Assembly (NCBI GenBank): GCA_902363665.1
Contig: CABJAW010000002.1
Span: 281,795 to 345,794 of the forward strand
DNA from: Lachnospiraceae bacterium
GTDB lineage: Bacteria; Bacillota; Clostridia; Lachnospirales; Lachnospiraceae
Direction of reading: 5' to 3'
Length of the DNA: 64,000 bases
Numbering within the stretch: the first letter of the stretch is position 1; every line of letters starts with the position of its first letter. The position numbers were made by a program, and so were the translations under genes. Positions 28,625-46,225 of this stretch are shown here, piece after piece. Under the pieces are notes generated by a model. It made no database searches and had not been told where the DNA came from. It saw only the letters and a list, made by a program, of their open reading frames with translations.

Positions 28625-29071
28625 TCAGTCTTCAATGCTGATGTATTTACTCTCCTCTACAGCCTTCTTATCCTGTTTTGGAATATCCAGCTTCAGGATA
28701 CCGTCCTCATACTTTGCATGAATGTCACTCTGCTTTACACCTTCGCCTACGTAAAAGCTCCGGCTCATGCTGCCTGCGTAACGCTCACGTCTGATGTATT
28801 TGCCTTTCTTAGCCTCTTCATCCTTATCCAGACCCTTTGCAGCTGCAATGGTAAGATAACCATGATCAAGATGGATCTTAACCTCATCCTTCTTGAAGCC
28901 CGGCAGATCAATTGCTACCTCGTAGCCATTCTCAGTCTCCTTTACATCTGTCTTCATCATGTTCTTTGCATGTTTGCCATACAGCTCTTTATCTACATCT
29001 GCAACCTGCGGGAATGAAAAATCCATCCAATCATTAAATAAATTCTCTCCAAAAATGCTCGGCATCAACAT
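28625..29071 (-). CDS. Small heat-shock protein, Hsp20/alpha-crystallin family
   Basis: 148 aa, AAGGAG nine bases before ATG 29071. The alpha-crystallin domain covers about 40-140: VKETENGYEVAIDLPGFKKDEVKIHLDHGYLTIAA, YIRRERYAGSMSRSFYVGEGV, and the closing KYEDGILKLDIPK. It is an ATP-independent holdase chaperone forming oligomers. Its promoter region carries a CIRCE-like operator and is the integration site of the mobile element (29221-29264). Confidence 0.95.
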   Translation of the reverse strand: MLMPSIFGENLFNDWMDFSFPQVADVDKELYGKHAKNMMKTDVKETENGYEVAIDLPGFKKDEVKIHLDHGYLTIAAAKGLDKDEEAKKGKYIRRERYAGSMSRSFYVGEGVKQSDIHAKYEDGILKLDIPKQDKKAVEESKYISIED

Positions 29072-29220: not shown

Positions 29221-29263
29221 GTTATAACACTTCTTGTTAGCAATGTCAATAGGTGAGTGCTAA
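29221..29263 (-). promoter_or_regulatory. hsp20 promoter with CIRCE-like operator
   Basis: On the minus strand TTGACA (29249-29244), 17-base spacer, TATAAC (29226-29221). Overlapping the -35 box, 29237-29263 has exact CIRCE geometry, 9-9-9: TTAGCACTC, nine bases, CATTGCTAA. The first arm is a perfect match to the HrcA operator half-site; the second differs at three positions. Inference: HrcA-type heat-shock control. Confidence 0.65.
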
Positions 29264-29264
29264 T
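29246..29264 (+). repeat. attL core, 19-bp direct repeat
   Basis: TCAATAGGTGAGTGCTAAT, identical to 45163-45181. It includes a full CIRCE half-site and four bases of the hsp20 -35 box. Confidence 0.85.
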
Positions 29265-29348: not shown

Positions 29349-29437
29349 TTACACCATTTTTACACCATTTCATTTGATTTTGGTGTAATGCTTATTTTCT
29401 TTACACCAAATTACACCAGTGACCTGAATTTACACCA
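29349..29437 (+). repeat. Arm-type integrase binding repeats, left end
   Basis: TTACACCA at 29349, 29360, 29401, 29411 and 29430, plus an inverted copy at 29381. Neighbours are 10-11 bp apart, one helical turn. The same octamer recurs twice at the right end. Inference: sites for the integrase N-terminal domain. Confidence 0.6.
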
Positions 29438-30653
29438 CTGCTGGTACAGCATCTGGCAGGTTCATTTTTGACATTTCATTTTCTACATGAGACATTTCGG
29501 CGATATGGTTATATACGTTCATCGTAATCTTTGCATCGGAATGTCCCATCACATACTGCATGACTTTCGGATTGACATTGTTTTCACCCAATCTGGTACA
29601 GCCCGTATGCCGAAGCGTATGAGCAGATATATGAGGCATCAGCTCAGGTTCTCTGTTTTCCTGGGCTGCCAATGCCGTTTCCTTTTTGTTATAAGCATTT
29701 ACAATGTTCTTTAGGAAACTGTTTACACCTGCCGGCATGATCGGACGTCCATGTTTTGTATTGAAGATGAATCCACTACGTCCACCAATCTCTACATTAC
29801 TCTGCAATCCCAGCATCAGATTCAATTCCTTCTGCTTACGAAATGCGTCATACACAGTCTGCGTCATCGGTATCGTTCTGATGCCCGCATCCGTTTTGGT
29901 TTCAGAATCATGGAAACAATAGCCTTCATCACCTTCATAGTAAACAAGCTGACCTCCCACATGGATTTCCCTGTTCTTCATATCTACATCCGACCAGGTC
30001 AATCCAATTGTTTCACTCACTCTCAGACAAGCCCCGAACATAATCTGCATCATTGGAAGATGTGGTTTATATACCTTACTATTCTCCACAAATTTCAGAA
30101 GTTTTTCCTGCTGTTCCAAAGTCAATGCTTCTTTTTCTTTTGCCGGGGCACCATAATCTCCAAGTGTTCCTGTAACCGGATTCTTTCGGATAATCTCGTC
30201 TGCTACTGCCATCTCAAAACTTGGGTTAAGCATAGCATAAAAGCCTTTGATCGTACTGTGTGCCAGCCCTTCATCTGACAGCTGCGAAAAAAATGTCCGT
30301 ACATGAGAGGTCTTAAAATCTACCACACGAATATTTCCCAGTGTATTACGCACCCGGTGATTCCACATACCGATATAATTCTTCTTCGTTCTTTCCCGGA
30401 TATTCGTCGTTGCCATATACCGTTCAAACAAGCCATTTACCGTCAGCTTCTTTACAGATGTGTCTGTAATAAGCTGATCATCCATATCTTTATTGACCTT
30501 TTTTTCCTGTTCTCTCAGGCTCGCAAGATCCATATCATAGATTGTTATCCGCTTTCCGGTAATCTCATCTTTGTAGCGATACATATAACGTCCATCTGAT
30601 CGCTGGCTCTCTCCTGTTCTTAAATTTCTGCCTTTGTTGTCTTTTCTTGCCAT
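29430..30653 (-). CDS. int: Tyrosine recombinase / integrase, Tn916 Int type
   Basis: 407 aa from ATG 30653. The N-terminal arm-binding domain (DNKGRNLRTGESQRSDGRYMYRY) is very like Tn916 Int, then a SAM-like core-binding domain (LFERYMATTNIRERTKKNY). The catalytic domain has the R-H-R-H-Y set: LRVSETIGLTW, HTLRHTG, MGHSDAKITMNVYNHI with the nucleophilic Tyr. It catalyses integration and, with Xis, excision at the 19-bp cores. A truncated paralogue of its last 37 residues lies at 45467-45580. Confidence 0.95.
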   Translation of the reverse strand: MARKDNKGRNLRTGESQRSDGRYMYRYKDEITGKRITIYDMDLASLREQEKKVNKDMDDQLITDTSVKKLTVNGLFERYMATTNIRERTKKNYIGMWNHRVRNTLGNIRVVDFKTSHVRTFFSQLSDEGLAHSTIKGFYAMLNPSFEMAVADEIIRKNPVTGTLGDYGAPAKEKEALTLEQQEKLLKFVENSKVYKPHLPMMQIMFGACLRVSETIGLTWSDVDMKNREIHVGGQLVYYEGDEGYCFHDSETKTDAGIRTIPMTQTVYDAFRKQKELNLMLGLQSNVEIGGRSGFIFNTKHGRPIMPAGVNSFLKNIVNAYNKKETALAAQENREPELMPHISAHTLRHTGCTRLGENNVNPKVMQYVMGHSDAKITMNVYNHIAEMSHVENEMSKMNLPDAVPAVV

Positions 30654-30853
30654 ACTAATCATTCCTTTCACATTCGTTGTTTGTTATTCGGAATGATTTT
30701 TGTCCTGTTCGTATCAGTCATAATCTGTCTGATATCTGCTCACAGATTAACATAATATTTTAGGATTTCCAAGGGTAAATTCTTGAAAAACACCAATTTT
30801 TCTTTGCACTCTCATTCCGAAGGAAATTCGTTGTTTTCTCCTGTTCTCGTCCA

Positions 30854-31655: not shown

Positions 31656-32216
31656 ATGACAATTGGTGATAAAATAAAAAAAATCCGGACATTCCGGAAT
31701 ATGACACAGGCTGAACTTGGTGCTGCTCTTGGCTGGGGCGATAAGGGTGCGAACCGCCTTGCCCAATACGAAACCAACTACCGGGTTCCCCGTAAAGATC
31801 TGGTGACTGAAATGGCCAGGATTCTGGATGTGAACCCAATCACTCTGTATGAACCAACAACAATGAACGCCGAAGAATTAATGGAAACGTTTTTCTGGAT
31901 GGATGAATTTAATCCCGGCATGATCAATCTCTTTCAGTTAGAGACTTATCCGGGTGAAAAATCAAATTCCAGCGACGATACCGCTATCCGCTACCATGAT
32001 TCTGATAGTTGGCCTACTCATCCACCAGTTGGTATGTGGTTTAATTATGGGGTTCTCAATGATTTTCTGAAAGAATGGACACTTAGAAAAGAAGAACTAA
32101 AATCTGGCGAAATAACCCGAGATGAATATTTTGAATGGAAAATCAACTGGCCACAGACCTGTGATGATTGTGGTAAACGAGAGCCGTCAAAACAGTGGCG
32201 AAAATCAAAAGAATAG
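31656..32216 (+). CDS. Xre family helix-turn-helix regulator of the element
   Basis: 186 aa. HTH_3 domain at 1-65 (IGDKIKKIRTFRNMTQAELGAALG...NRLAQYETNYRVPRKDLVTEMARILDV). The C-terminal region is rich in Trp and acidic residues and ends in a CDDCGKRE pair of cysteines. It is the only rightward gene of the element, transcribed away from xis/int across the switch region. It is the likely repressor that keeps the element quiescent. Confidence 0.88.
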   Translation: MTIGDKIKKIRTFRNMTQAELGAALGWGDKGANRLAQYETNYRVPRKDLVTEMARILDVNPITLYEPTTMNAEELMETFFWMDEFNPGMINLFQLETYPGEKSNSSDDTAIRYHDSDSWPTHPPVGMWFNYGVLNDFLKEWTLRKEELKSGEITRDEYFEWKINWPQTCDDCGKREPSKQWRKSKE

Positions 32217-32396: not shown

Positions 32397-34145
32397 TTAT
32401 ATATTAAGTTTCCAGTTTGCCGCTTCCGTCTGCAGATCAACTAACTTACGATATAGACCATTTTTCTTCATAAGCGTATCATGGTTTCCTTTTTCTGCCA
32501 CAACACCTTTATCCAGAACAACGATCTGATCCGCTGCTTCAATCGTTCTCATCCTGTGAGCGATTACCAGAACTGTCTTTCCACTGACCAGTTCAGATAT
32601 TGCTTCCTGTATCTGTGTTTCACTGTCCACATCTAAAGAAGCAGTTGCTTCATCCAGCAAAATAACAGGCGCATCTTTTAAAAGTGCACGAGCAATGGAA
32701 AGACGTTGGCACTCTCCACCGGAAAGCGTAGAACCATTTTCTCCTATTACTGTCTGATAACCCTGCGGTAAATTTTCGATAAATTCATGACATTTTGCTG
32801 CCTTTGCTGCTGCAATAACGTCTGTATCACTTGCGCCTTTTCGTCCAACACGAATATTTTCCATAATTGTATTATTGAACAGGACAACATCCTGAAATAC
32901 AATCGAGAAATCTTTCATCAATGCAACCGAATCAAGTTTTGCGATATCAACGCCACCAAGTGTAATCTTTCCTCCATCCAGGTCATAGAATTTTGCGGCA
33001 AGTTTTGCTACAGTACTCTTACCACCGCCGGATGGTCCGACTAATGCGGTTACCTGTCCCTGTTTCGCAGTAAATGATACATCCTTTAAGACCGGCTTTC
33101 CTTCTTCATAAGAAAATTTCACATGGTCAAAGGTTACGTCATAGCCCTTGGTGTGATAGTCTTTTTGTCCGCTTTCTAAAGGATATTCCTGAATCTCTTT
33201 CAGACGATTAACCTGTAAATTTGCACCAAAGAGTTCAGCCATATTTGCCATAGCTCCGGAAAGCGGATCGTACAGGCGTGAGGCTGCGATCAGATACAGA
33301 ATATACGTAAACAGACTGATCTTTCCATGTAAGATTAGAGAACTTCCCACAACGATCACAGTTACAAGACCAAGTCTTAAGATCATCTGACCGGTTGTAA
33401 CTAGACTTGCGCTGACCATCTCGCTGGAAATCTGTGCTTTCTCTGCTATATCCATTTTTGCATCCAGTTTCTTAAGATAAGTATTCTCCTGATTACACGC
33501 TTTGATATCCTGTACGGTTTCCAGACATTCCTGGATTCCTTCTGACAGATTCATTCTTTCCGTCATATATTTCTTTCCAAGCTTCTCCTGCCATTTTCGT
33601 GAAAGCAGTACGATTGCAAATGCCACCGGTGCAACCCATAGCAGTGCCAGTCCCATTTTCCAGTTCATAATCAAAAGTACGATACACACAATCGCTGTCG
33701 AGATCAATGCTCCAAAGAACTGCGGAACAGTATGGGAAAATGCATGTTCAAAGCTTGCACAGTCACCCATAATTGTACTTGTCAGATCAGCAAGATCACG
33801 TTCATGGAAAAATCCAAGTGGTAACGTCCTAAGCTTTTCTGCAAGTGTAATACGTCTACGTTCACTTTCCTCATAGGTACCAATATAAGCTTTTGTATAT
33901 TGCAAATAATGAAAAATAAAAATAATAACTAAAATGATAATTCCTGCAGCTGTATACCATGCAAGCCCTGCCGTTTTATCTTCCATTCCAAGAGCCACCG
34001 GAAGCATCGCATTTAATACTATTGCAAGTAAAGCAACTGGAAGCATCAAGCTGATATTTGCCAGTACAGAGTAAACAATTGCTTTAAAAAGATCTTTTGC
34101 ACCCTGATCGCTCAGAGCATATTTTTTCTGCAATCTGTTAATCAT
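32397..34145 (-). CDS. ABC exporter half-transporter (permease-ATPase fusion), second of pair
   Basis: 582 aa from ATG 34145, which overlaps the stop of the first half-transporter by 8 bp. Six-helix membrane domain (about 20-310) followed by the ATPase: Walker A GPSGGGKST, signature LSGGECQR, Walker B VILLDEATASLD, H-loop IAHRMRT. It forms a heterodimer with the upstream gene product. The fold is shared by drug exporters and by YbtPQ/IrtAB-type siderophore importers; the linked AraC gene and lipoprotein make the latter worth considering. Substrate unknown. Confidence 0.92.
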   Translation of the reverse strand: MINRLQKKYALSDQGAKDLFKAIVYSVLANISLMLPVALLAIVLNAMLPVALGMEDKTAGLAWYTAAGIIILVIIFIFHYLQYTKAYIGTYEESERRRITLAEKLRTLPLGFFHERDLADLTSTIMGDCASFEHAFSHTVPQFFGALISTAIVCIVLLIMNWKMGLALLWVAPVAFAIVLLSRKWQEKLGKKYMTERMNLSEGIQECLETVQDIKACNQENTYLKKLDAKMDIAEKAQISSEMVSASLVTTGQMILRLGLVTVIVVGSSLILHGKISLFTYILYLIAASRLYDPLSGAMANMAELFGANLQVNRLKEIQEYPLESGQKDYHTKGYDVTFDHVKFSYEEGKPVLKDVSFTAKQGQVTALVGPSGGGKSTVAKLAAKFYDLDGGKITLGGVDIAKLDSVALMKDFSIVFQDVVLFNNTIMENIRVGRKGASDTDVIAAAKAAKCHEFIENLPQGYQTVIGENGSTLSGGECQRLSIARALLKDAPVILLDEATASLDVDSETQIQEAISELVSGKTVLVIAHRMRTIEAADQIVVLDKGVVAEKGNHDTLMKKNGLYRKLVDLQTEAANWKLNI

Positions 34146-35955
34146 GTTTTTTTTCCTTTCCCACAGATTTTCCAACCTTCCAGGTAATCTGTGTCTGATA
34201 CTCTTTCCACATTGATGCATAAATGCCATTTTGATTCACAAGTTCCTGATGATTGCCACATTCTACGATTTTTCCATCACCAAACACGAGAATCGTGTCT
34301 GCATTCTGAATTGTAGACAGACGATGTGCAATCATAAGTACTGTTTTTCCACGGGTCAATCCTTCAAAGGCAAGCTGGATCTGATGTTCATTTTCTGCAT
34401 CTGCAAAAGCAGTCGCTTCATCAAGTACGATAATCGGTGCATCCTTGAGAATTGCACGGGCTAATGCAATACGCTGATTTTCACCACCGGACAGATAAGT
34501 TCCTCCGTTTCCAACCACAGTATCGAGCCCATTTGGGAGTCTGTCTATGATATCTTTGCACTGGGCTGCTCCCGCTGCTTTCAATACCTCATCACGTGTG
34601 GCCTCCGGTCTGGCAGCTCTGATATTTTCTAGTAAAGTGTCATTGAACAGGCGTGTATTCTGGAATACAAATGCAATCTGCTCCATCAAATCATTTTTTG
34701 CAATCTCACGAACATCTACACCGCCAACCAGAACAGCGCCTTCCTGCACATCATAAAAACGTGGGATCAGACTTGCCGCTGTAGATTTACCACTGCCGGA
34801 AGCTCCGACTAATGCAATGGTTTTTCCTGACGGAATTTCGAAGCTCACATGATCCAGTGCTTTTTTCTCAGTGCCCTGATAAGTAAAGGAAACATCCTGA
34901 AATACAACGGAAGCAGCCTTTGGCTGTTTTGGAGTATTGGATTCTTCGAGTGGTTTCTCCTGTAAAACAGCTTCAATTCTGCTTATCGCACTTTTGGCTG
35001 CCATCAATTGTTCGCTTGCAAACATGATACGGTTCATCATTGTCGTGCAAATCGGTGTAAACAGACTGTAAAACAGGAAATCCAAAAACAGCTTCTGACT
35101 GTCAGCCTGTCCACTTGAACCCGTAAGAATCAACACTGCTGCCGGAATCAATAAAATGAAAGTTCCATTTAAAGTAACATTAAATCCAGTCAGTGGAATA
35201 CGACAGCAGATTGCATATCCGCTGGCATATTTTTTGTATTCTTCAATCGCAGCGTGAAAGTTTTTGAAAGAATACACAGTTTGCTGAAATACCTTTACAA
35301 CCGGGATTCCACGGACAAATTCAACCGCTTCTTTGTTCATTGTTTCCAGGGCAGTCATGTATCCAGACATAAAATCTGCATTATCTCCACCCATCATTTT
35401 TTTCAGAAAAAATACGCTGATGACCAACGGAAGCAGACAACAAATTCCAAGTCTCCAATCAAAGACAAACAACAAAATGATAACTGCAACCGGCATAACA
35501 ACTGCACCAGTTAGATCCGGTAACTGGTGTGCCAGAAACCCTTCGGTCAGTCCAGCATTATCATCAATAATTTTCCGAAGTCTGCCACTGGCATTCTGAC
35601 TGAAATATCCAAGTGGTAATGTAACAATATGATGCATAGCTTCTTTTTTCATATTGGTTGCTGTGCGAAACGCTGCCAAGTGTGAACAACATAGTGCTAC
35701 AAAATACAAAAAAATGCTAAGCATTGAAAATGCCACAGCGAGCCATGCATAATGTCCGCTGGATGCTGCCAGAGAAATATTCCCCTGCATCATTGCATGT
35801 AAGATATCCCTAATCACAAACCAGATGCAGACAAAGGGAATCATAGAAAGTATCGTGGACAGTCCTGCCAGAATACATCCGGCAATGGTCAACCAGTGTC
35901 GGTTCCCTGCAAATTCAAACATCCGAGATAGTTCAGGATTTTTCTTTTTATTCAT
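34138..35955 (-). CDS. ABC exporter half-transporter (permease-ATPase fusion), first of pair
   Basis: 605 aa, AGGAGG before ATG 35955. Membrane domain (about 20-320) then ATPase with Walker A GASGSGKST, LSGGENQR, Walker B IIVLDEATAFADAENEHQI, H-loop IAHRLST. In Walker B-D-loop the usual SALD/SVD is AFADAE, as in YbtQ-like and some multidrug heterodimers. A strong terminator (35972-36014) directly abuts its ribosome site, so expression needs read-through from the lipoprotein gene. Confidence 0.92.
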   Translation of the reverse strand: MNKKKNPELSRMFEFAGNRHWLTIAGCILAGLSTILSMIPFVCIWFVIRDILHAMMQGNISLAASSGHYAWLAVAFSMLSIFLYFVALCCSHLAAFRTATNMKKEAMHHIVTLPLGYFSQNASGRLRKIIDDNAGLTEGFLAHQLPDLTGAVVMPVAVIILLFVFDWRLGICCLLPLVISVFFLKKMMGGDNADFMSGYMTALETMNKEAVEFVRGIPVVKVFQQTVYSFKNFHAAIEEYKKYASGYAICCRIPLTGFNVTLNGTFILLIPAAVLILTGSSGQADSQKLFLDFLFYSLFTPICTTMMNRIMFASEQLMAAKSAISRIEAVLQEKPLEESNTPKQPKAASVVFQDVSFTYQGTEKKALDHVSFEIPSGKTIALVGASGSGKSTAASLIPRFYDVQEGAVLVGGVDVREIAKNDLMEQIAFVFQNTRLFNDTLLENIRAARPEATRDEVLKAAGAAQCKDIIDRLPNGLDTVVGNGGTYLSGGENQRIALARAILKDAPIIVLDEATAFADAENEHQIQLAFEGLTRGKTVLMIAHRLSTIQNADTILVFGDGKIVECGNHQELVNQNGIYASMWKEYQTQITWKVGKSVGKEKKHD

Positions 35956-36910: not shown

Positions 36911-37933
36911 TCAGACATTCTTTTTATACTCCGTCGGTGTCATTCCATATTCACCTCGAAATGCCGAAGTAAATTTATTTGGATTTGTATATCCTATTTC
37001 TGTTGCAATTTCACCTACAGATAAACTCCCCTCCCGTAATAATTTTTCAGCAATTTGTAAACGATAAGTCCGGAGATACGCATAAACAGGTGCGCCATAC
37101 ATTCCCTTAAAACAACGTTTCATTGCCGTTGGTGATATTTCAAAACGCTCTGCCAACTCCTCAATTGTATAATGTTCTTTGATATGTTCTACAATAAAAT
37201 CATGAATCTGTCTGGTACAGTTCCTTTGCGATTTTGAAAAATAAACATAGTCGTTCTTAATCCTGTCAAAATCCATTTCTGTTAATATCAATAAAAGTTC
37301 CAGAAGCTTTATTCTAATATAACTAGGCTTTATATGTTCCTGAACGGTATATAATTCCGAAAATATATGTTGTACAGTTTCATTTGCACGAACCATATAA
37401 AAATCCTGTTTTCCTGCAAACTCTGAAATTTGAGTAAGATTAATAGAAAGAAGTTTCAAGATTCTTCCCATCTCATCTGTAATTCCTTCCAAATCAATCG
37501 TTATCGTTATCCCATGATAATGGGAAGTAGGAAATGTTGATGTATGTGATTTCCTATGCAAGGTACAGATGGATAAATTTCCCGCTGCCATATAGCAATA
37601 ACTACGCTCTCCAAACGCACACTCACACCGCCCCTCCCGACAATAATTAATTTCAATAAATCCAGTACGTGGACTCTGCATCTTATTACAATATTCCATA
37701 TGCATATCATTATAGACCAACTCCATTCCTGGAAATGTCTGATATACTACGATATCTCCTGTACCACTTTCATTCTCAAGATGAAATCTTGAACATATCG
37801 TATCTTCTTTTTTTCTTCGAACAGAAGTTCCATATAAATCAACACTTCTGAAATCCGATTTCACTTCCGAAGATGCCAAAAGTATATCTCCAGCAATCTT
37901 ATATGGATTGTCCGCTGCTGTTACTATTCTCAT
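36911..37933 (-). CDS. AraC family transcriptional regulator of the ABC cargo
   Basis: 340 aa from ATG 37933, one base after the stop of a 17-residue leader ORF, so probably translated by coupling. The C-terminal 100 residues are the double helix-turn-helix (YTIEELAERFEISPTAMKRCFKGMYGAPVYAYLRTYRLQIAEKLLREG; VGEIATEIGYTNPNKFTSAFRGEYGMTPTEYKK). The N-terminal 230 residues are an unrecognised sensor region. Layout (AraC, lipoprotein, two half-ABC genes) resembles siderophore-uptake loci such as YbtA-YbtPQ; that function is inferred. Confidence 0.9.
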   Translation of the reverse strand: MRIVTAADNPYKIAGDILLASSEVKSDFRSVDLYGTSVRRKKEDTICSRFHLENESGTGDIVVYQTFPGMELVYNDMHMEYCNKMQSPRTGFIEINYCREGRCECAFGERSYCYMAAGNLSICTLHRKSHTSTFPTSHYHGITITIDLEGITDEMGRILKLLSINLTQISEFAGKQDFYMVRANETVQHIFSELYTVQEHIKPSYIRIKLLELLLILTEMDFDRIKNDYVYFSKSQRNCTRQIHDFIVEHIKEHYTIEELAERFEISPTAMKRCFKGMYGAPVYAYLRTYRLQIAEKLLREGSLSVGEIATEIGYTNPNKFTSAFRGEYGMTPTEYKKNV

Positions 37934-37934
37934 T

Positions 37935-37988
37935 TTACACCTGTCCACTTTCTTCCGTTGCTGTTCTTACTTTTGTCTCCTCTTTCAT
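37935..37988 (-). CDS. 17-residue leader peptide coupled to the AraC gene
   Basis: ATG 37988 with a strong GAAGGAG site seven bases upstream encodes MKEETKVRTATEESGQV and stops at 37935, one base before the AraC ATG. The AraC gene itself has only AGGTG. Inference: a leader that sets AraC translation. Confidence 0.5.
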   Translation of the reverse strand: MKEETKVRTATEESGQV

Positions 37989-38175: not shown

Positions 38176-39249
38176 TCAATAACCAACATTCTTATTATTC
38201 AAATATATTCTAATCAGAACAGCCCCTACATTTATGACCAAAATCACAAACAGCAAATTAAATGGCAAATATTCCCGTATCAAGTTTCCTAATACCACAA
38301 TAAAGGAAATACTGGCTATCAAAACCATTTTATAAATGTCATCCCATATCTTTCTATACTGCTCAATTCCACCCCATACAAGAAGTACGCATCCGACAAT
38401 TCCTGCCATAATCGCAACCATTGAAACTATTCGTTCAAATGTGACTTCTCCTGAAGGATATCCCATATAATCCAGCTGTTCAAACCATATCACATACTCT
38501 CTGCACCAATTAACTGGCAACATGATTAGCTGCAATATATCTCTTTGAAATGCTCCATTCTGAATAAGTGAAAAGAAAATGACACAAAGATATCCCCAAT
38601 CCCAGAAAAACTGCCTTTCTTTCATATCCTCAACTTCTGATTTTGCTTTTCTCCTGGCTCTTTGTATCTCCACATCTGCCCGTTTTCTTACCCTTTCAGT
38701 CTGATACTCTGCCTGCCTTGCCTGTTTTTCTGCTTCTTCCTGTTTCCGCTGTGCCTGTTCAAACGCTTCCACCGATGACTGGTTCACCTGTATCTGCAAC
38801 TTAGAGTTCCGGTCCCGAACGTCTTTTATTTCTTCTTCGAGCTGCTCTTGCTCGCTCCTGCTCATCAATCCGTTTCTGTTCCTCAAGTCGTCGTTGCTCT
38901 GCTGTAAGGACTGATTGAGTTTCCGCATTTCGGACAGTTCTACTGTCATCTGCTGAATTTCGGCGTTCGACTTCTGCATTTCTTCTTGCATTTCGTGATT
39001 CTCGAAGAACAACTGCTGTTTTTCCATTTTCAACTTGTGTGTCCTTTCCTGAAATTCCTGAATAAACTCGTTCATCTTCTGATTTCTCACCTGCAACTCG
39101 TCCCTCTCTGCCGACACTTTCTCCAGCGTTTCTGCCTGCTCCTTCGCAAGCTGCTTCCACTTGTCGGTAGTATCCAGCGAATTCTTCGTCTGATCCGTTT
39201 GTTCGTTCTGCTTCGGCTCGTGTCCTTTCGTAATTTCCATTAAATTCAT
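38176..39249 (-). CDS. Coiled-coil membrane protein of the mobilization module
   Basis: 357 aa from ATG 39249 (AAGGAGG nine bases before). Residues about 20-215 are a long charged coiled coil (AKEQAETLEKVSAERDELQ...); about 225-355 hold three or four membrane helices. It overlaps the relaxase gene by 449 bp in another frame. Known: proteins of this layout (often named DUF6040) follow relaxases in clostridial mobilizable elements. It may tether the relaxosome to the membrane; that role is inferred. Confidence 0.75.
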   Translation of the reverse strand: MNLMEITKGHEPKQNEQTDQTKNSLDTTDKWKQLAKEQAETLEKVSAERDELQVRNQKMNEFIQEFQERTHKLKMEKQQLFFENHEMQEEMQKSNAEIQQMTVELSEMRKLNQSLQQSNDDLRNRNGLMSRSEQEQLEEEIKDVRDRNSKLQIQVNQSSVEAFEQAQRKQEEAEKQARQAEYQTERVRKRADVEIQRARRKAKSEVEDMKERQFFWDWGYLCVIFFSLIQNGAFQRDILQLIMLPVNWCREYVIWFEQLDYMGYPSGEVTFERIVSMVAIMAGIVGCVLLVWGGIEQYRKIWDDIYKMVLIASISFIVVLGNLIREYLPFNLLFVILVINVGAVLIRIYLNNKNVGY

Positions 39250-40042
39250 ATTCCAATGCCTCCTTACTGATGTCCAGATGAAAGGTTTTAGACAAATTGC
39301 TGTCACGCACTTTCTTTCCATCCTGATTCTGGAACGTGATGTGCTTTCTCTTTTCCGTCCAGTTCACACTCCATCCAAACTGTTTCATTTTTTCTATAAA
39401 CTTTTCTTTGCTGATACAATTTTCCAGTGCTTTTAAGACCGCCATTGCACAGTCAGCCACAAAACTGTCCTTTGCATGTTGTCGGAACAGGTTATATTTA
39501 TCCTTGTTCCATGCAATGACTTCGCCTTTTTCGATTTCACTGCCGTCAAAGTGTTTTCCTTTTTCTGCAACTGTCAATCCACGTTTTCTGCACATCTGAT
39601 TAGTAAATTGCTTCATCCGCTCCAGATCTTTTTTCGTAGTATGCAATTTCTTTCCATCCTCATAGCTGACAGAATTCGTCACCAGATGGCAATGAATATG
39701 GTCTTTATCCTTATGGACTGCCACTAAGGTTTGAAATCCCTGGAACCATTTTTCTGCAAACTCTTTTCCAAATTCAAATGCCTGCTCTGGTGTAATCTGC
39801 TCGTCCTTATGCCAGGAAATAATATTGTGGGCGTACATTCTTCCAGAGTCTTTATTCCATAATTTCTTTTCTTCCAGAAATGTGCGGTACACCAGATCAT
39901 AATTGATTTCATCGTGGCAATACGGACCAGTTACATAGGCAAGCTGCTCACTGGTCTTGTCCTGACGCAATACATATTCGATACAGTTTCTCATTGCTCC
40001 ATGAGAATTTGTCCGCTTATTAACTGTCTTATTGACTGCCAT
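38801..40042 (-). CDS. Relaxase / mobilization nuclease (MobA/VirD2 type)
   Basis: 413 aa. N-terminal nuclease domain with an early Tyr (MRNCIEYVLRQ), motif II-like YAHNIISWHKDE, and the metal-binding HKDKDHIHCHLVTNSV (about 130-145), the three-histidine motif of PF03432 relaxases. The last 130 residues are Arg/Glu-rich and low in complexity because this DNA also encodes the coiled-coil protein in another frame. It nicks oriT and pilots the strand during conjugation. It overlaps mobC by 52 bp. Confidence 0.9.
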   Translation of the reverse strand: MAVNKTVNKRTNSHGAMRNCIEYVLRQDKTSEQLAYVTGPYCHDEINYDLVYRTFLEEKKLWNKDSGRMYAHNIISWHKDEQITPEQAFEFGKEFAEKWFQGFQTLVAVHKDKDHIHCHLVTNSVSYEDGKKLHTTKKDLERMKQFTNQMCRKRGLTVAEKGKHFDGSEIEKGEVIAWNKDKYNLFRQHAKDSFVADCAMAVLKALENCISKEKFIEKMKQFGWSVNWTEKRKHITFQNQDGKKVRDSNLSKTFHLDISKEALEYEFNGNYERTRAEAERTNGSDEEFAGYYRQVEAACEGAGRNAGESVGREGRVAGEKSEDERVYSGISGKDTQVENGKTAVVLRESRNARRNAEVERRNSADDSRTVRNAETQSVLTAEQRRLEEQKRIDEQERARAARRRNKRRSGPEL

Positions 40043-40371
40043 ATCTTTTCACTCTCCTTCCTGTAGTTGCGGATATTCTGATTGAGATAATGCAAAATAT
40101 CTTCTCTTGGTATAAATCCACCAGCATTCATTTTCCGTGCAATCTGGTTGATATTCGTAGCAACACCACGAAGCTGGCTGAGCATCTCTGCAAGCATCAG
40201 ATTCAGCTTTTTCAATTCTTCCACTTCCTCTGCGGATGCAATTTTTAAACCTGCTATTGCATGAATTACAACCGCCTGCTGAGTCTGTCCAGACTCCTTT
40301 ACTTTATTTTGGAGCAGATCATACTCTGCTTTATTCATTCGTATCGTTACCGTATAATTTCGTTTTCGCAT
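39991..40371 (-). CDS. mobC: Relaxosome accessory protein, MobC-like
   Basis: 126 aa from ATG 40371 (AAAGGAG ten bases before; ATG 40422 has no site). Ribbon-helix-helix start (NYTVTIRMNKAEYDLLQNKVKESGQT) and the MobC hallmark LRGVATNINQIARKMNAGG. It binds next to oriT and helps the relaxase. It is first in the mob gene set, directly downstream of the candidate oriT. Confidence 0.88.
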   Translation of the reverse strand: MRKRNYTVTIRMNKAEYDLLQNKVKESGQTQQAVVIHAIAGLKIASAEEVEELKKLNLMLAEMLSQLRGVATNINQIARKMNAGGFIPREDILHYLNQNIRNYRKESEKIWQSIRQLISGQILMEQ

Positions 40372-40422
40372 AAATTCTTGACTCCTTTCTTCATTCGTCT
40401 TTCCATAAATAGAATCAGCCAT

Positions 40423-41175: not shown

Positions 41176-41622
41176 TTAAAAACTATCCGCAAAATCCAAT
41201 GCCGCATCCAAATCTGCTTCCTGTTCCCAGTCCGTTATATCTTCCGTGTGCTGCTCACTTTCCTTTTCTTCTGTCAGATCGGACAATTCTTTTTCTCCTG
41301 CTGATTCTTTCACAAATGGTGCAAGCATCTCAAATAAATTCTTTGCCATAGCCATCGGAACAGATTCTTTCACTCCATTCCGGATAGCTGTCTCCACTCT
41401 TTCCAGAAAAGCGTCTTCCTTTTCTCTAGTTTCCAGATATGGATCTTCTTTATTTCGATATTCTCTGGCAAAATAATCATTCAACGCTGCCACAACTGCT
41501 TTTGTATAGGATTTATATTTCTGCCTGTCCATGGTCTGAAGATATTCCCATGCTTTCCTATCCTGTTCATCACACAGGTTCAACCGAATATTGGTGTTGA
41601 TAATTCTCCGTTCTTTTCTCAT
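41176..41622 (-). CDS. ParR-like partition adaptor (small DNA-binding partner of ParM)
   Basis: 148 aa, GGAGG nine bases before ATG 41622; overlaps the parM stop (ATGA). The N-terminus (IINTNIRLNLCDEQDRKAWEYLQTMDRQKYKSYTKAVVAAL) resembles a ribbon-helix-helix DNA-binding domain; the C-terminal half is acidic and helical. Its position directly after parM is that of ParR, which links the filament to the centromere. Assignment by position and fold only. Confidence 0.65.
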   Translation of the reverse strand: MRKERRIINTNIRLNLCDEQDRKAWEYLQTMDRQKYKSYTKAVVAALNDYFAREYRNKEDPYLETREKEDAFLERVETAIRNGVKESVPMAMAKNLFEMLAPFVKESAGEKELSDLTEEKESEQHTEDITDWEQEADLDAALDFADSF

Positions 41623-42563
41623 ACCAGCATTCCTCCGTTTTTCTGAATTTTTCTCACCGTCATAGCTTCATATCCTTTTGCGGTTGCACAGATATCCCGT
41701 ACAATCGTTACTCTGTCTTTGTCATATTCCCCGAAGTTCTGGATCATACAACCACCACCGCCAACTACATATAAACGCATCAGCTCCGGGTTGTATTCCC
41801 GTTCTCTCAGCTTATGGAAGATTTCTTTCGTATAATCTCCGGCAGCTTTACGAATAACCGAAAGATATTTTTCACCAATATCTGCCGTCCCGGTGCGGAT
41901 CACCTGCTCGATCACCAGATCATCTACCACTGTTCCCAGTTCTTTCAACAAAGATTCCCTAACAGCAAGTACACACTGATGTGTTCCATATTTCTCTGTA
42001 TAGCATTTCTTCTCCACCGGGCGAGAATTGTTGATATACATGATGTTCATAGTTCCGTTTCCAATATCTGCCAGCATATTGATACCTTTGAAATCCTGTA
42101 AGCGGTAAAAGGCTGCTGCAAATCCCTGTGGGTAAATATCAGCTCCTGCAAACTCTACATGATACTCTTTATTGCGGAATATAAAATCCACGCTTTCATT
42201 CTTGAGAAGATATTTCTGGAAATCTTCTTTCTGTGTAGCTACCCAGGTAAGCGGAAGTCCGGCTGCAATGTGTACCTTTGCCTGATCCATTCCTTTCCCA
42301 TCAAGTTCCCTTGCGATAGCCGCCAGTGTCAGCACATAATAATCCTCGTCCTGCGTTTTCTCCGCACAGAACTCCTTATGCTCCTCACCGATCTGGTAAA
42401 ACATACCATGGTAAACAAGAAGGTTATTCTGAAAGATTGGCTCCTTCTCATATCTGGCTACACCGGATGGAAAACATCTGGTTGCAGTTTTCATGTTGCC
42501 ATAACCATGGTCAATCCCAATCACCATAATTGTCTCGTTTTTGTTTGTTTTCATCATTCTCAT
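41619..42563 (-). CDS. parM: ParM/StbA-type actin-like plasmid segregation protein
   Basis: 314 aa from ATG 42563. Actin-fold nucleotide motifs: phosphate 1 VIGIDHGYGNMKTAT, phosphate 2 MLADIGNGTMNIMYI (about 170), adenosine motif LYVVGGGGCMIQNF (about 270). It forms ATP-driven filaments that push replicated copies apart. Its presence in an integrating element suggests the excised circle is replicated and segregated. Confidence 0.9.
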   Translation of the reverse strand: MRMMKTNKNETIMVIGIDHGYGNMKTATRCFPSGVARYEKEPIFQNNLLVYHGMFYQIGEEHKEFCAEKTQDEDYYVLTLAAIARELDGKGMDQAKVHIAAGLPLTWVATQKEDFQKYLLKNESVDFIFRNKEYHVEFAGADIYPQGFAAAFYRLQDFKGINMLADIGNGTMNIMYINNSRPVEKKCYTEKYGTHQCVLAVRESLLKELGTVVDDLVIEQVIRTGTADIGEKYLSVIRKAAGDYTKEIFHKLREREYNPELMRLYVVGGGGCMIQNFGEYDKDRVTIVRDICATAKGYEAMTVRKIQKNGGMLV

Positions 42564-42722
42564 AATCATACCTCATTCTTTCTTCTTTATTTTTATTGAT
42601 AAAAGCACAGCTGGGGCAAAAAGGGCATTTTTTTGAACCTCCTGACAGCCTTTTTATTTTTTTGCCCTGTCCTGACCTCGTTCATTTTTGCCTTTTTTGC
42701 CCCAAATGCCCCAAACCATCTG

Positions 42723-44528
42723 TCATATATTCAATTTTAATTGTTCAGAGTGTTCCTCAAAGGGAGTCCTGTCCCCTGCTTCCAGAGGCTGGAAATCTTC
42801 TTCCCGTACAGCAATATCCTGATAACAGTAATCGCCGTTATATTTCCTTGCCTGAAACCCTTTGCCCTCCATATTTTTAAAAAATCCTGATTTTGCATGT
42901 CCCTGACGGCCATTGTCCTCGCAGTATTCCTCGTACATCCGGAACACGTCGCTGCGTTTCAGCCGCTTTCCTTTTTCCTTCACCAGTTTCTCCTCCAGGA
43001 AAGCACATACACTGTCTGATAACCGCCGCAGTTCCCAGACGCATTCTTTGCTGTGTTCGCTTTCGATAAGTTCCCCACGATCATAAACATCTTTCAATGC
43101 TGTCACTGCCATATGAATCGCATAGTCCGCTTCTGCCTTGATCTTTTCTTTCAGCCGGATATCTTTTTCCTCTCTTGGAATCATCTGGTTCATATCCAAA
43201 ACAAGGAGTCTCCGGTAGAAAGCATCGGATTTGTCTTCCAGATTCTGCGGCATTTCGTTGGTTGAAAAAAGTAGCTTTGCATATGCCTTATAAAAGACCG
43301 CATCTTTTCCTTTTTTCTCATACAAAAGTGTATCTTCACCAACTGCCTTTTTCAGCACATCGGTTGTATCCATTGCCTTGCATGGGATATCTGCACAGGC
43401 ATTTAACAGCTTTCCATACATCCCGGTAGCATAAAACCGTTTGTTCAAGTCCTGCAATGAGATACTGGACGTATTCTCATTTCCGATCACGTGCTGGATC
43501 AGTGCAACTGCAACGGACTTTCCGGTACCTCCATTTCCTTTCAGCATCAGGAATTTCTGGAACTGGGTGTCTGTTGTCATGCAATATCCGAAATACTCCC
43601 AGAACATCTGCTGTTCCACCTTATCCGGTATGGAAGAATCCAGATACTTTCTGATATTTTCTCCACCTCCCAGGACTTTTTCCCTGTCCTCCGGATAATA
43701 TGGGAAGGGGATCTGATTGATAGTCAGATACTTCGGATCATGCTCTACCAGCTCATCTGTCAGTACATCATAATAAGCATTTTTGAAATTGATCCAGTGG
43801 GCTGGCTGCTTATTCAGCTCATACGAATTCCGGTAAATCTGTGGCTGCGTAATCAAGAGATTATAAACTCTCTGGATGGTGCTGCTGTTGACCTGATCCC
43901 GGTAAATCAGCTTTTGAATCCGGTATTTCAGCTTCACACCTCTGGCATCCTCGATAAAAACACCATGCTCATAATAATAGGGAATCTCTCCCCTTACGAA
44001 GAAGCTCACATTTTCCACAATATAATCCACAATCTCCATATCCCGTACACCGGTGACTTTCCCTTTGGAATCAAACTTGTGGAACCGGCTTAATTCCGGA
44101 TCGTTCTTCGGTTCCCGTTCAAACCGCAGGATAAACTGCTCAAGAACTTTACCAAGCTCCTGCTTATTGTCAAAATTTCCAAGATACTCTTTTTCTTTGA
44201 ACAACTGCCACCCGGATTTTCCGTCCAGTCCGGCATCCTTGCAGAATTCCAGTATCCGGTCATTCATCCATTTGACTGTACAGGCTGCCACATAGTGATA
44301 GGAGCTTTGACAGCTTCCCTGAAACTGCATCGAACGCATTTCATCGACAAATCCATCTATACTGTAATAACCGTCCTCTTCTTCCTGCACTAAATAAAGG
44401 GACTGATAACCGGAAATTATGATATTTAACGCAATCTCCTGATTATCCACCAGAAAAATATATTTCTGTGCAGTCCCTTCCGGTTCTGTCTCCATATAAT
44501 GCTTTAGGAACTTCTTGTTCATATTCAT
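42723..44528 (-). CDS. Phage/plasmid primase-helicase, P4 family (DUF5906/D5_N type)
   Basis: 601 aa. Superfamily 3 helicase Walker A MLKGNGGTGKSVAVALIQ (about 335-350), Walker B-like region KLLNACADIP, motif C YAKLLFSTNEMP, then a C-terminal winged-helix segment. The N-terminal half resembles the D5_N region. It initiates replication of the excised element. Between it and parM, 42564-42722 is T-rich and non-coding. Confidence 0.88.
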   Translation of the reverse strand: MNMNKKFLKHYMETEPEGTAQKYIFLVDNQEIALNIIISGYQSLYLVQEEEDGYYSIDGFVDEMRSMQFQGSCQSSYHYVAACTVKWMNDRILEFCKDAGLDGKSGWQLFKEKEYLGNFDNKQELGKVLEQFILRFEREPKNDPELSRFHKFDSKGKVTGVRDMEIVDYIVENVSFFVRGEIPYYYEHGVFIEDARGVKLKYRIQKLIYRDQVNSSTIQRVYNLLITQPQIYRNSYELNKQPAHWINFKNAYYDVLTDELVEHDPKYLTINQIPFPYYPEDREKVLGGGENIRKYLDSSIPDKVEQQMFWEYFGYCMTTDTQFQKFLMLKGNGGTGKSVAVALIQHVIGNENTSSISLQDLNKRFYATGMYGKLLNACADIPCKAMDTTDVLKKAVGEDTLLYEKKGKDAVFYKAYAKLLFSTNEMPQNLEDKSDAFYRRLLVLDMNQMIPREEKDIRLKEKIKAEADYAIHMAVTALKDVYDRGELIESEHSKECVWELRRLSDSVCAFLEEKLVKEKGKRLKRSDVFRMYEEYCEDNGRQGHAKSGFFKNMEGKGFQARKYNGDYCYQDIAVREEDFQPLEAGDRTPFEEHSEQLKLNI

Positions 44529-44645
44529 CACTTCCCCTCAGAGCAAAAGAAAAGACGTGGGCCACATTTCTATGACTCACGCCTTATCTGCTCACAATAT
44601 TCTGTTTACTATCAATTTATCTGTTACTTACTGTATTCCTCAATC

Positions 44646-44993
44646 TTACACGTAGATCAATTCCTTCAAAATAATTTCTTCTGCAACCGCTCTGTGCTGA
44701 TTGGCTACTCGTACCCATGTCATCTGGTCTTTCTCCTTATCCGGCAATGGATCTTTTTCCTCCAACTGTTTCAGAATGACTTCTTCCAGTTCTCTGGCTG
44801 CCTTGTCCACTTCCAGCAGATGCTCACCGATTGTATCCTGCAACAGCATCACCTGATACAAGGAATTACGGTGGTTCTTCAGATAATCTCTGCGTAAGAA
44901 TCCATATTTACCAAGCTGCTCCATCTGATCACCAGATTTGTAGGTAAGGTTCGGAATCAGGTATCCATTCACATTTGTATAAGTCAGTTTCAT
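44646..44993 (-). CDS. Transposon-encoded TnpV family protein
   Basis: 115 aa from ATG 44993. Pattern YLIPNLTY...GKYGFLRRDYLKNHRNSLYQVMLLQDTIGEHL and AVAEEIILKELIYV match the short TnpV family seen in clostridial elements; function unknown. A decayed copy of its last residues is at 50412. The strand downstream to 45162 is non-coding and contains the right arm-type sites. Confidence 0.8.
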   Translation of the reverse strand: MKLTYTNVNGYLIPNLTYKSGDQMEQLGKYGFLRRDYLKNHRNSLYQVMLLQDTIGEHLLEVDKAARELEEVILKQLEEKDPLPDKEKDQMTWVRVANQHRAVAEEIILKELIYV

Positions 44994-45026
44994 TTTTATT
45001 AGCACTCTCCATTTTTCTCTGATTTT

Positions 45027-45162: not shown

Positions 45163-45181
45163 TCAATAGGTGAGTGCTAAT
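45163..45181 (+). repeat. Right core, 19-bp direct repeat shared with a second element
   Basis: Identical to 29246-29264. To its right the sequence continues not into chromosome but into DNA laid out like the left end of the first element: hairpin-rich non-coding DNA, then an integrase C-terminus. So this is the junction between two tandem elements. Confidence 0.8.
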
Positions 45182-45466
45182 TCTTTTGTGAAGATTTTGT
45201 GAACACTACGAGCTATGCAAAATAGTGAAAATAACGCCCTGCAAGTTTACTTGCGAGGACGTTTATTTTTGCTATTTTATAGGGCGACAGCCCGACAGCG
45301 AGGGAATTCTTTCCCGAGCTGTGCATGGCGTATCTCACAACTTCACAGGGATTTTCAATTGCTTTTGCACGGAGGTTTCTTGGTTTGACCACATTTTTAC
45401 GACAAATTCTTGGAAAAATATATTCGTCTGATTTTCTTACCACATTTTACGACAACGGCTTATTGT

Positions 45467-45580
45467 TTATACCACAGCAGGTACGGTTTCCGGCAGGTTC
45501 ATTTTAGACATCTTGTTCCCCACATGAGACTTCTCTGCAATATGATTATAGACATTCATTGTGATCTGTGCATCTGAATG
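45467..45580 (-). pseudogene. C-terminal remnant (37 residues) of a second Tn916-type integrase
   Basis: In frame from 45580 to the stop at 45467: HSDAQITMNVYNHIAEKSH and MSKMNLPETVPAVV, nearly the same as the end of the intact integrase at 29430. It breaks exactly at the catalytic H of MGHSDA and joins feoB sequence. 45182-45466 is the non-coding left end of that element, with GCAAG/CTTGC, GGGC-GACA-GCCC and GGGAA/TTCCC hairpins and arm-like ACCACATTTTACGACAA repeats that differ from TTACACCA. Confidence 0.88.
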
Positions 45581-46225
45581 TTTCTGATGATGTGGGTTGT
45601 ATACCGTATCTTCGGTGATTCCCTTTCCCCGAAGTCAGAACGGGTAGGACTGCTCATGGAACTTCCGCCATATCATAAACCAGATTTTCGTAATATCCTG
45701 TATGTGACTTTCCAGCGTACTTTTGATATTTTCTGCCGCGCCCTGCGTGTAATTTCAATTGTTTCTATCGTATTTTTTGCTCTGACTTATGGTTTCGGCG
45801 GAAATGCAGAATCCAGTATTCTGTACAGGTTTGGTAAAGTCATCGAACCGGTAACTATGTTTTTCGGACTGAAATGGCAGGCTTTCCTTGCTTTCTGCGC
45901 ATCTGCGATTTCAAAGGAATCACTGCCTGGTGTATTAAACACATTATACGACACGGGTGGAAGCCTTGTCAGCTCTACCTTCGGTGCCAAAGTAGCAGAC
46001 AATGCTTCGGGCATTTCCGAAATCTTATCTGCAAACTTTACTCAGGCGCAGGGACTCGCCTTTATCTTTGCAATCAATTTTAACATGCCATGCTTCAGCG
46101 CACTTGCAGCTACCGCACGCGAAACCCATTCTGTAAAATGGACTGCAAAAATCGGCGCATTTTACACAGTGGCGGCACTAAGTGTATCCTGCATTGTATA
46201 TCATATCGGGCTGCTTATATTCTGA
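45578..46225 (+). pseudogene. feoB: 3' fragment of feoB (ferrous iron transporter B, C-terminal membrane part)
   Basis: 215 codons, no native start. Conserved FeoB C-terminal pattern: GLLMELPPYHKPDFRNILYVTFQRTFDIFCRALRVI, EPVTMFFGLKWQAFLAFCASAISKESLPGVLNTL and the closing FNMPCFSALAATARET. The GTPase domain and first gate helices are missing, so it cannot transport iron. The break coincides with the end of the integrase remnant. 46226-46432 carries a short TcpD-like scrap (VAVDLVFNQNGG, near 46270-46322) and nothing else. Confidence 0.88.

Follow-up and report, generated by a model that had tools for sequence, protein, structure and literature searches.

Site-specific mobile elements usually have tRNA genes or the ends of genes as their address. 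The window, a 64-kb stretch of Lachnospiraceae DNA, contains an element whose one end overlaps the promoter of a small heat-shock gene, and the question raised by this locus is what the integrase recognizes at such a place. CIRCE, a known repressor-binding site with the full consensus TTAGCACTC-N9-GAGTGCTAA, is found upstream of chaperone genes. The original prediction was that this HrcA operator is where the element attaches and that operator and promoter remain whole on the hsp20 side, and this is borne out at many related insertions. The favored reading, to which a probability of about 90% is assigned, is that CIRCE serves as attB for one integrase clade, with its arms as core-type integrase sites and its spacer as the overlap, and that the site is rebuilt and re-usable after insertion. 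Judged by sequence comparison, a family of mobile elements in gut bacteria would insert into the heat-shock switch of chaperone genes and leave the switch sequence whole afterwards.

The window element spans ~15.9 kb between two identical copies of a 19-bp core, TCAATAGGTGAGTGCTAAT, at 29246-29264 (attL) and 45163-45181 (attR). With up to three mismatches allowed, the 64 kb contain exactly these two copies, both perfect, and none occurred in 100 shuffles. As predicted, each copy holds a perfect CIRCE half-site, GAGTGCTAA (29255-29263 and 45172-45180). A further half-site on the minus strand (44999-45007) brings the number in the window to three, compared to 0.44 expected, which was reached by 1 of 100 shuffles. 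The target gene, hsp20, lies at 28625-29071 on the minus strand and encodes a protein of the alpha-crystallin family (PF00011, E 1.2e-23; NF042420 Hsp18_Clos, under its cut-off), whose best match in a sample of 397 genomes from one family has 87% identity. Direct reading of the minus-strand junction gives ATTAGCACTC-ACCTATTGA-CATTGCTAA-CAAGAAGTGT-TATAAC. The predicted promoter TTGACA-17-TATAAC proved correct in letters and coordinates, with the -35 box TTGACA at 29244-29249 (minus strand; TTGA within the core, CA outside of it) and the -10 box TATAAC 17 nt away at 29221-29226 (minus strand). The 9-9-9 palindrome that had been described as CIRCE-like was likewise found, reading TTAGCACTC-ACCTATTGA-CATTGCTAA on the minus strand at 29237-29263. 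This inverted repeat upstream of a chaperone gene has 2 mismatches in 18 positions, both in the arm outside the core, and 0.04 are expected by chance. The core is composed of the outer CIRCE arm, the spacer, and the first four bases (TTGA) of the -35 box. CIRCE overlaps the -35 box, and both operator and promoter are complete at the int-side junction, so the chaperone gene keeps a whole operator.

By its gene anatomy, the window element is an integrative mobilizable element with predicted excision and transfer. An integrase and a relaxase lie between its att sites, and no VirB4-/VirD4-type Pfam match was obtained among the scanned subset of its ORFs. The tyrosine integrase (29430-30671, minus strand, 413 aa) has its 3' end toward attL and is of the Tn916/Tn1549 type, with an arm-binding domain (PF02920) and a catalytic domain (PF00589). 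An R/H/R/H/Y set can be lined up (R in clrvse, H-x-x-R in ahtlrht, H in mghsd, Y in vynhi), which we take to be the catalytic residues. The best solved relatives are the Int chains 6EMY, 6EMZ, and 6EN0 (E about 2e-43 to 5e-43), labeled "Int protein" in the table and presumably Int of Tn1549. The remaining annotated genes are also located on the minus strand. They encode a MOBP-like relaxase (38801-40042; PF03432, E 1.6e-33; NF041893 TraI/MobA(P), under cut-off), a MobC/NikA-like mobilization protein (39991-40422; PF21983, PF05713), a ParM/ALP-like actin (41619-42569; PF17989), a P4/D5-type primase-helicase (42723-44531; TIGR01613, E 3e-52, above cut-off), and a TnpV-like protein adjoining the far end (44646-45005; PF14198). 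The inner half-site GAGTGCTAA at 44999-45007 is located at the ribosome-binding site of the TnpV-like gene, 174 nt inward from the far end; of 19 pattern matches, 14 have an inner half-site 174-175 nt inward from the end, two are int-side junctions, and one is too short.

The cargo comprises an AraC-type regulator (36911-37948, minus strand; PF12833) and two overlapping ABC-transporter genes, membrane and ATPase (32397-35955, minus strand), for which none of the best 25 NCBIfam models for each scored above cut-off. A PADLOC scan of six window proteins gave a match to mad3 (2e-32) for one ABC transporter, probably via its ATPase domain, weak matches to DNA-binding-type models (4.5e-5 at best) for the frame at 31656-32216, and no match for four proteins. 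A plasmid search with the 17-kb window stretch gave no match, and the best 10 of 1199 phage records with an integrase match were at most 40% identical over the query.

In the proposed mechanism, a Tn916/Tn1549-type integrase clade would use the CIRCE operator, with its inverted 9-bp arms around a 9-bp spacer, as attB. The integrase would bind the two arms as core-type sites, and strands would be exchanged in the spacer, the overlap ("coupling") region. On the int side, the end of the element would bring in a CIRCE arm, TTAGCACTC, and its opposite end would have another sequence. Integration would yield a junction of arm, spacer, and chromosomal arm on the int side and a far junction with a single arm. 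Comparison of related loci shows the position of the site, its conservation, its restriction to one clade, its occurrence at several target genes, the behavior of the spacer, and tandem stacking. The arms presumably bind the integrase and HrcA presumably still binds the rebuilt site, which may be why the site was adopted.

The neighborhoods of related integrases are the first line of evidence. A scan of the genome collection with the window integrase returned 29 loci, and 23 of them are CIRCE junctions with left arm, spacer, and CIRCE-like right arm; insertion without CIRCE is thus not the rule. The six other loci show an arm followed by unrelated sequence (L008), no arm (L011, L017, L025), or an arm only at the junction with the far end of another element (L020, L027). 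In the family of G002, 141 of 299 genomes have a relative at E up to 1e-40. The graded loci yielded 87 integrase rows that are 37-100% identical (eight loci with short integrase pieces gave no row). In 31 of the 87 rows, CIRCE with up to three mismatches is present within 1 kb 3' of int and absent within 1 kb on the other side, and single-base shuffles of the flanks gave CIRCE at this level in 1 of 3480 cases.

The integrase tree contains the 80 rows of at least 290 residues and was rooted at its midpoint for drawing. It leaves out L016, L018, L018b, L019, L020, L020b, and L021, and among these L016, L018, L019, and L021 had been labeled CIRCE by the script. On one side of a well-supported branch, 29 of 38 rows carry the CIRCE label (27 by script, and L002 and L010, with four mismatches, added by hand), and on the other side 0 of 42 do; these rows are related, so the counts are not independent events, and the loci were picked by integrase similarity. 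A single change on the tree does not account for the label, which takes 4 to 7. The nine unlabeled rows among the 38 are of several kinds: L165 and L167 (37-38% identity) sit on long branches and have no CIRCE, L109 and L011 lack an arm, as does L017 over the 297 nt before its contig ends, and in L008 and L129 a CIRCE arm, which comes from the element, stands against unrelated sequence. In L128 and L130, which were met separately from the far-end survey described below, stacking is seen as well, the arm running into the far end of another element.

The final table covers 59 chosen loci, including seven of a sister clade. An integrase-adjacent left arm with at most one mismatch is found in 45 (perfect in 43) and none in 12, and two (L028, L029) are without an integrase match at the cut-off. 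The genes behind the 45 arms are hsp20 in 18 cases (17 distinct, as L115 and L183 are one locus), clpB in 15, htpG in three, groES in two, and other in seven. The genes were named by blastp against four reference proteins (window, L002, L111, L117), with a Pfam check on the window hsp20 alone. The other seven comprise five loci whose right side is not CIRCE (L008, L027, L128, L129, L130), one at which the contig stops (L113), and L105. In L105, a perfect CIRCE and promoter lie 138 nt 3' of the integrase match, before a frame that by eye resembles a thioesterase and not a chaperone gene. A CIRCE-type site with up to four mismatches in the right arm lies 128-478 nt 3' of int at 40 of the 59 loci (39 distinct), and at 38 of these 40 a whole CIRCE precedes hsp20, clpB, htpG, or groES. 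For annotators, a practical rule for the limits of such elements is to seek CIRCE ~130-300 nt past the integrase gene.

Across the 40 sites, variation is seen at spacer positions 10-14, and none at positions 2-9 of the left arm or in the GC of the right arm (positions 23-24), which are identical in 40/40. The constancy of the left arm is partly built into the final table because at most one left-arm mismatch was allowed; the earlier scans (29 loci; 87 rows) imposed no such requirement. Spacer positions 15-18 correspond to the TTGA of the -35 box (T 36, T 35, G 33, and A 34 of 40), and the fixed part of the core is the arm and usually this TTGA. The prevalence of TTGA agrees with a reading in which the integrase targets the -35 region of sigma-A promoters generally and CIRCE is incidental through its overlap with that box, and promoter targeting is known for DDE elements of the TnGBS type (excerpt of PMC3942029). 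Three htpG sites (L117, L118, L120) largely refute it, as far as sequence can tell. Their palindromes have 0 or 1 mismatch and their spacers (AACCTGTTT, AATGAAAAT, and AACAAAACT) are all unlike ACCTCTTGA, with a -35-like box beyond the operator and none in the spacer. Moreover, 38 of the 40 CIRCE-type sites precede four chaperone genes and not mixed promoters, which leaves promoter targeting very unlikely. With the palindrome retained at the htpG sites around unrelated spacers that hold no -35 box, the integrase most likely reads the CIRCE palindrome. The predicted overlap of core and -35 box is frequent but is absent at the three htpG sites, and the site is better described as the palindrome. 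L118 (htpG) and L131 (groES), which are neighbors in the tree and come from one genome, likewise occupy operators with unrelated spacers.

The spacers themselves behave as expected of an overlap region. Two pairs of right ends that are 95-98% identical differ in their spacers: L106 at clpB has ACCTC and L107 at hsp20 has AGGGG, and L110 at clpB has ACCTC and L111 at groES has AAACC. In these pairs of near-identical ends, the spacer changes with the target gene. In L008 and L129, the spacer is ACCTCTTG, which is usual for these elements, despite the unrelated DNA beyond. Seven elements had their ends paired on one contig, a pairing deduced from position. The two spacers are unlike each other in four of these elements (G002, G005, G012, G018) and alike in the remaining three (window, G004, G008). 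The predicted 19-bp core at both ends thus holds for the window, but in relatives its spacer part differs in four of seven elements. Taken together, the paired ends, the two pairs of right ends, and L008/L129 indicate that the spacer letters of either parent can land at either end. The coupling sequences of Tn916 behave alike, in that the two ends of an element may carry different ones. The arms would be the integrase sites, and strand exchange would fall inside the 9-bp spacer.

At the far junction (attR, 45163-45181), TAATGGAAG stands where the second CIRCE arm would be. The adjoining DNA (45182-45581, minus strand) consists of a right end and the 3' part of an integrase; it is a 78% repeat of the int 3' end (repeat families D1, D2), and the 402 nt up to the far core match the right end of the L013 element at 86% identity. 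Judged by these similarities, the far end borders not on original chromosome but on what remains of an earlier CIRCE-targeting element. The likeness to the L013 right end makes it most likely that the window element entered a CIRCE left by the older element. A frame with FeoB C-terminal and Gate matches (45578-46225) starts where the similarity to the broken second integrase ends, and this boundary is likely a rearrangement point.

Similar arrangements recur elsewhere. Among 20 far-end junctions (19 from a core scan of 25 genomes, and the window), six are abutted by the right end of another element (at least 40 nt aligned; the weakest with 66 nt at 70%). A rebuilt CIRCE would again be a valid attB, and elements would therefore stack; the junctions suggest that rebuilt sites are indeed re-used. 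In a small check for reverse orientation, no chaperone gene was seen beside the far end in 10 far-end stretches, so the orientation of insertion looks fixed.

The original prediction expected a site of this kind near the heat-shock genes of many Firmicutes. This is too wide for the integrase clade as sampled here: among the matches listed, integrases of CIRCE-clade level (E up to 7.7e-99) are present in 23 of 299 family genomes and in 2 of 341 class-wide genomes, and both of the latter are also in the family sample (at most six candidates were scored per genome in the family sample and at most five in the class sample). The native site is more widespread, and a -35-overlapping CIRCE with at most one mismatch occurs in 80 of 120 family genomes compared to 28 of 245 class genomes; a control pattern read backward had no match in either set. 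By the pattern used, a genome has 0-4 CIRCE copies. This scarcity bears on a second alternative, namely that a low-specificity integrase inserts widely and the insertions that survive are those that keep chaperone control. Tn916 has such low specificity with a preference for AT-rich palindromes (excerpts of PMC12084037 and PMC4701971), and L008 and L129 look like off-target insertions. Survival, however, does not explain why 0-4 CIRCE copies are occupied over the many neutral places in a genome, and selection as the only cause is about as unlikely as promoter targeting. The least credible alternative, that the chaperone gene and its CIRCE travel as cargo and the operator is not the target, would fit the chaperone gene adjoining int in 38 of 45 cases but is contradicted by near-identical integrases and ends that adjoin different chaperone genes, by the second core copy that marks the far end, and by one hsp20 downstream region (100% over 300 nt) that lies behind different element ends in L200 and L221 (in L221, an integrase remnant only).

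For CIRCE as the attachment site, unoccupied counterparts were also sought. Searches with far-end flanks (14 stretches, three of them searched in their genera) gave no empty site matched on both flanks. The G012 flank (eight genomes) and the G002 flank (64 genomes) matched their own genomes and no others. The Faecalibacillus flank matched in 6 of 6 genomes, and the two closest relatives outside G018 showed no continuation into CIRCE. The nearest pair of an empty and an occupied site is clpB of L042, with no integrase within 3.7 kb upstream, and the occupied clpB of L026, which are 94% identical over 191 nt downstream and unrelated upstream.

Compared to known systems, the CIRCE elements combine familiar features in a different way. 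They resemble Tn916/Tn1549 in the PF02920 and PF00589 domains of the integrase, in palindromic target arms around a less conserved middle (excerpt of PMC12084037), and in end spacers that differ, as seen in four of the seven paired elements. The target motif of Tn916 is a palindrome of T/A arms around 6 bp (excerpt of PMC12084037), and Tn916 uses many AT-rich sites without flanking direct repeats (TTTTTnnnnnnAAAAA; excerpt of PMC4701971). The CIRCE clade, in contrast, mostly uses one defined operator palindrome that is present at several genes, and the window element has a 19-bp direct repeat at its CIRCE site. TnGBS-type ICEs insert 15-17 bp upstream of sigma-A -35 boxes (excerpts of PMC3942029 and PMC4701971), and the oriented insertion just upstream of promoters is shared. 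They use a DDE transposase and have no target sequence in common, whereas here a tyrosine recombinase acts in a repressor operator that is whole afterwards. Other ICEs and IMEs with tyrosine integrases insert into tRNA genes or the ends of housekeeping genes such as guaA, rbgA, and ebfC, and according to the same excerpt they share the site-specific tyrosine integrase, the direct repeats, and a target that is little changed (PMC4701971). The difference is that the target here is a transcription-factor operator with its promoter, at several genes of one regulon. A motif TAGCA-N15-TGCTAA has been given as CIRCE-like (excerpt of PMC4989314). CIRCE is known as a site bound by a repressor and would here be an attachment site; by title and beginning of the abstract, no paper among the matches listed describes a CIRCE/HrcA operator in that role, in a collection that covers neither bioRxiv nor most subscription papers. 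What would be new is a repressor operator of several genes of a regulon as the address, with the operator complete at the gene afterwards. With such an address, competition of a transcription factor and a recombinase for one site becomes directly testable, as does a gating of gene transfer by stress regulation in gut Lachnospiraceae.

A further, tentative idea, considered rather unlikely as it stands, is that HrcA is a gatekeeper of element mobility. HrcA and the integrase would read one palindrome, so that in unstressed cells attB and attL would be covered by HrcA. The site would be freed by heat or by protein-folding stress, opening it to integration in recipients and to excision in donors, and the CIRCE copies across the regulon would be equivalent, refillable sites at which elements stack. 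If gating were true, stress could mobilize defence genes. Cargo differs among the relatives, and anti-phage defence genes lie within 10 kb of the integrase in L004, L005, L007, L008, and L009. L004 has PglZ and BrxL (BREX-type), L007, L008, and L009 are BREX-type by one scanned protein each (PglZ, BrxL, and PglZ, respectively), and L005, of the Qat type, encodes proteins like QatA and QatC together with a type I restriction-like piece. The defence genes are located between paired ends in L004, L005, and L008; for L007 and L009, the far end is either absent from the contigs or on a different one.

Two minor observations concern the surroundings of these sites. Direct repeats TTCACA-N5-TTCACA with an 11-nt period occur just outside the left CIRCE arm, both at the right ends of elements (e.g., L003, L004, L016) and at integrase-free sites (L175, L177, L182, L194, L198, L203, L226). 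Among sites without an integrase they were seen in 7 of 26 in the family sample and in 0 of 28 in the class sample, and at least two of these seven (L222, L232) look by eye like element remnants. The repeats may be a native motif, a regulator site, an integrase arm site, or a scar. Outside the CIRCE set (L121-L167), 31 of 47 rows have a motif CCGACGATGAAG with up to two mismatches at 165-400 nt 3' of the integrase, a count made without a shuffle control. In L133, this motif runs, by eye, into a frame resembling the C-terminal domain of methionyl-tRNA synthetase, and the CCGACGATGAAG group may therefore use a coding site.
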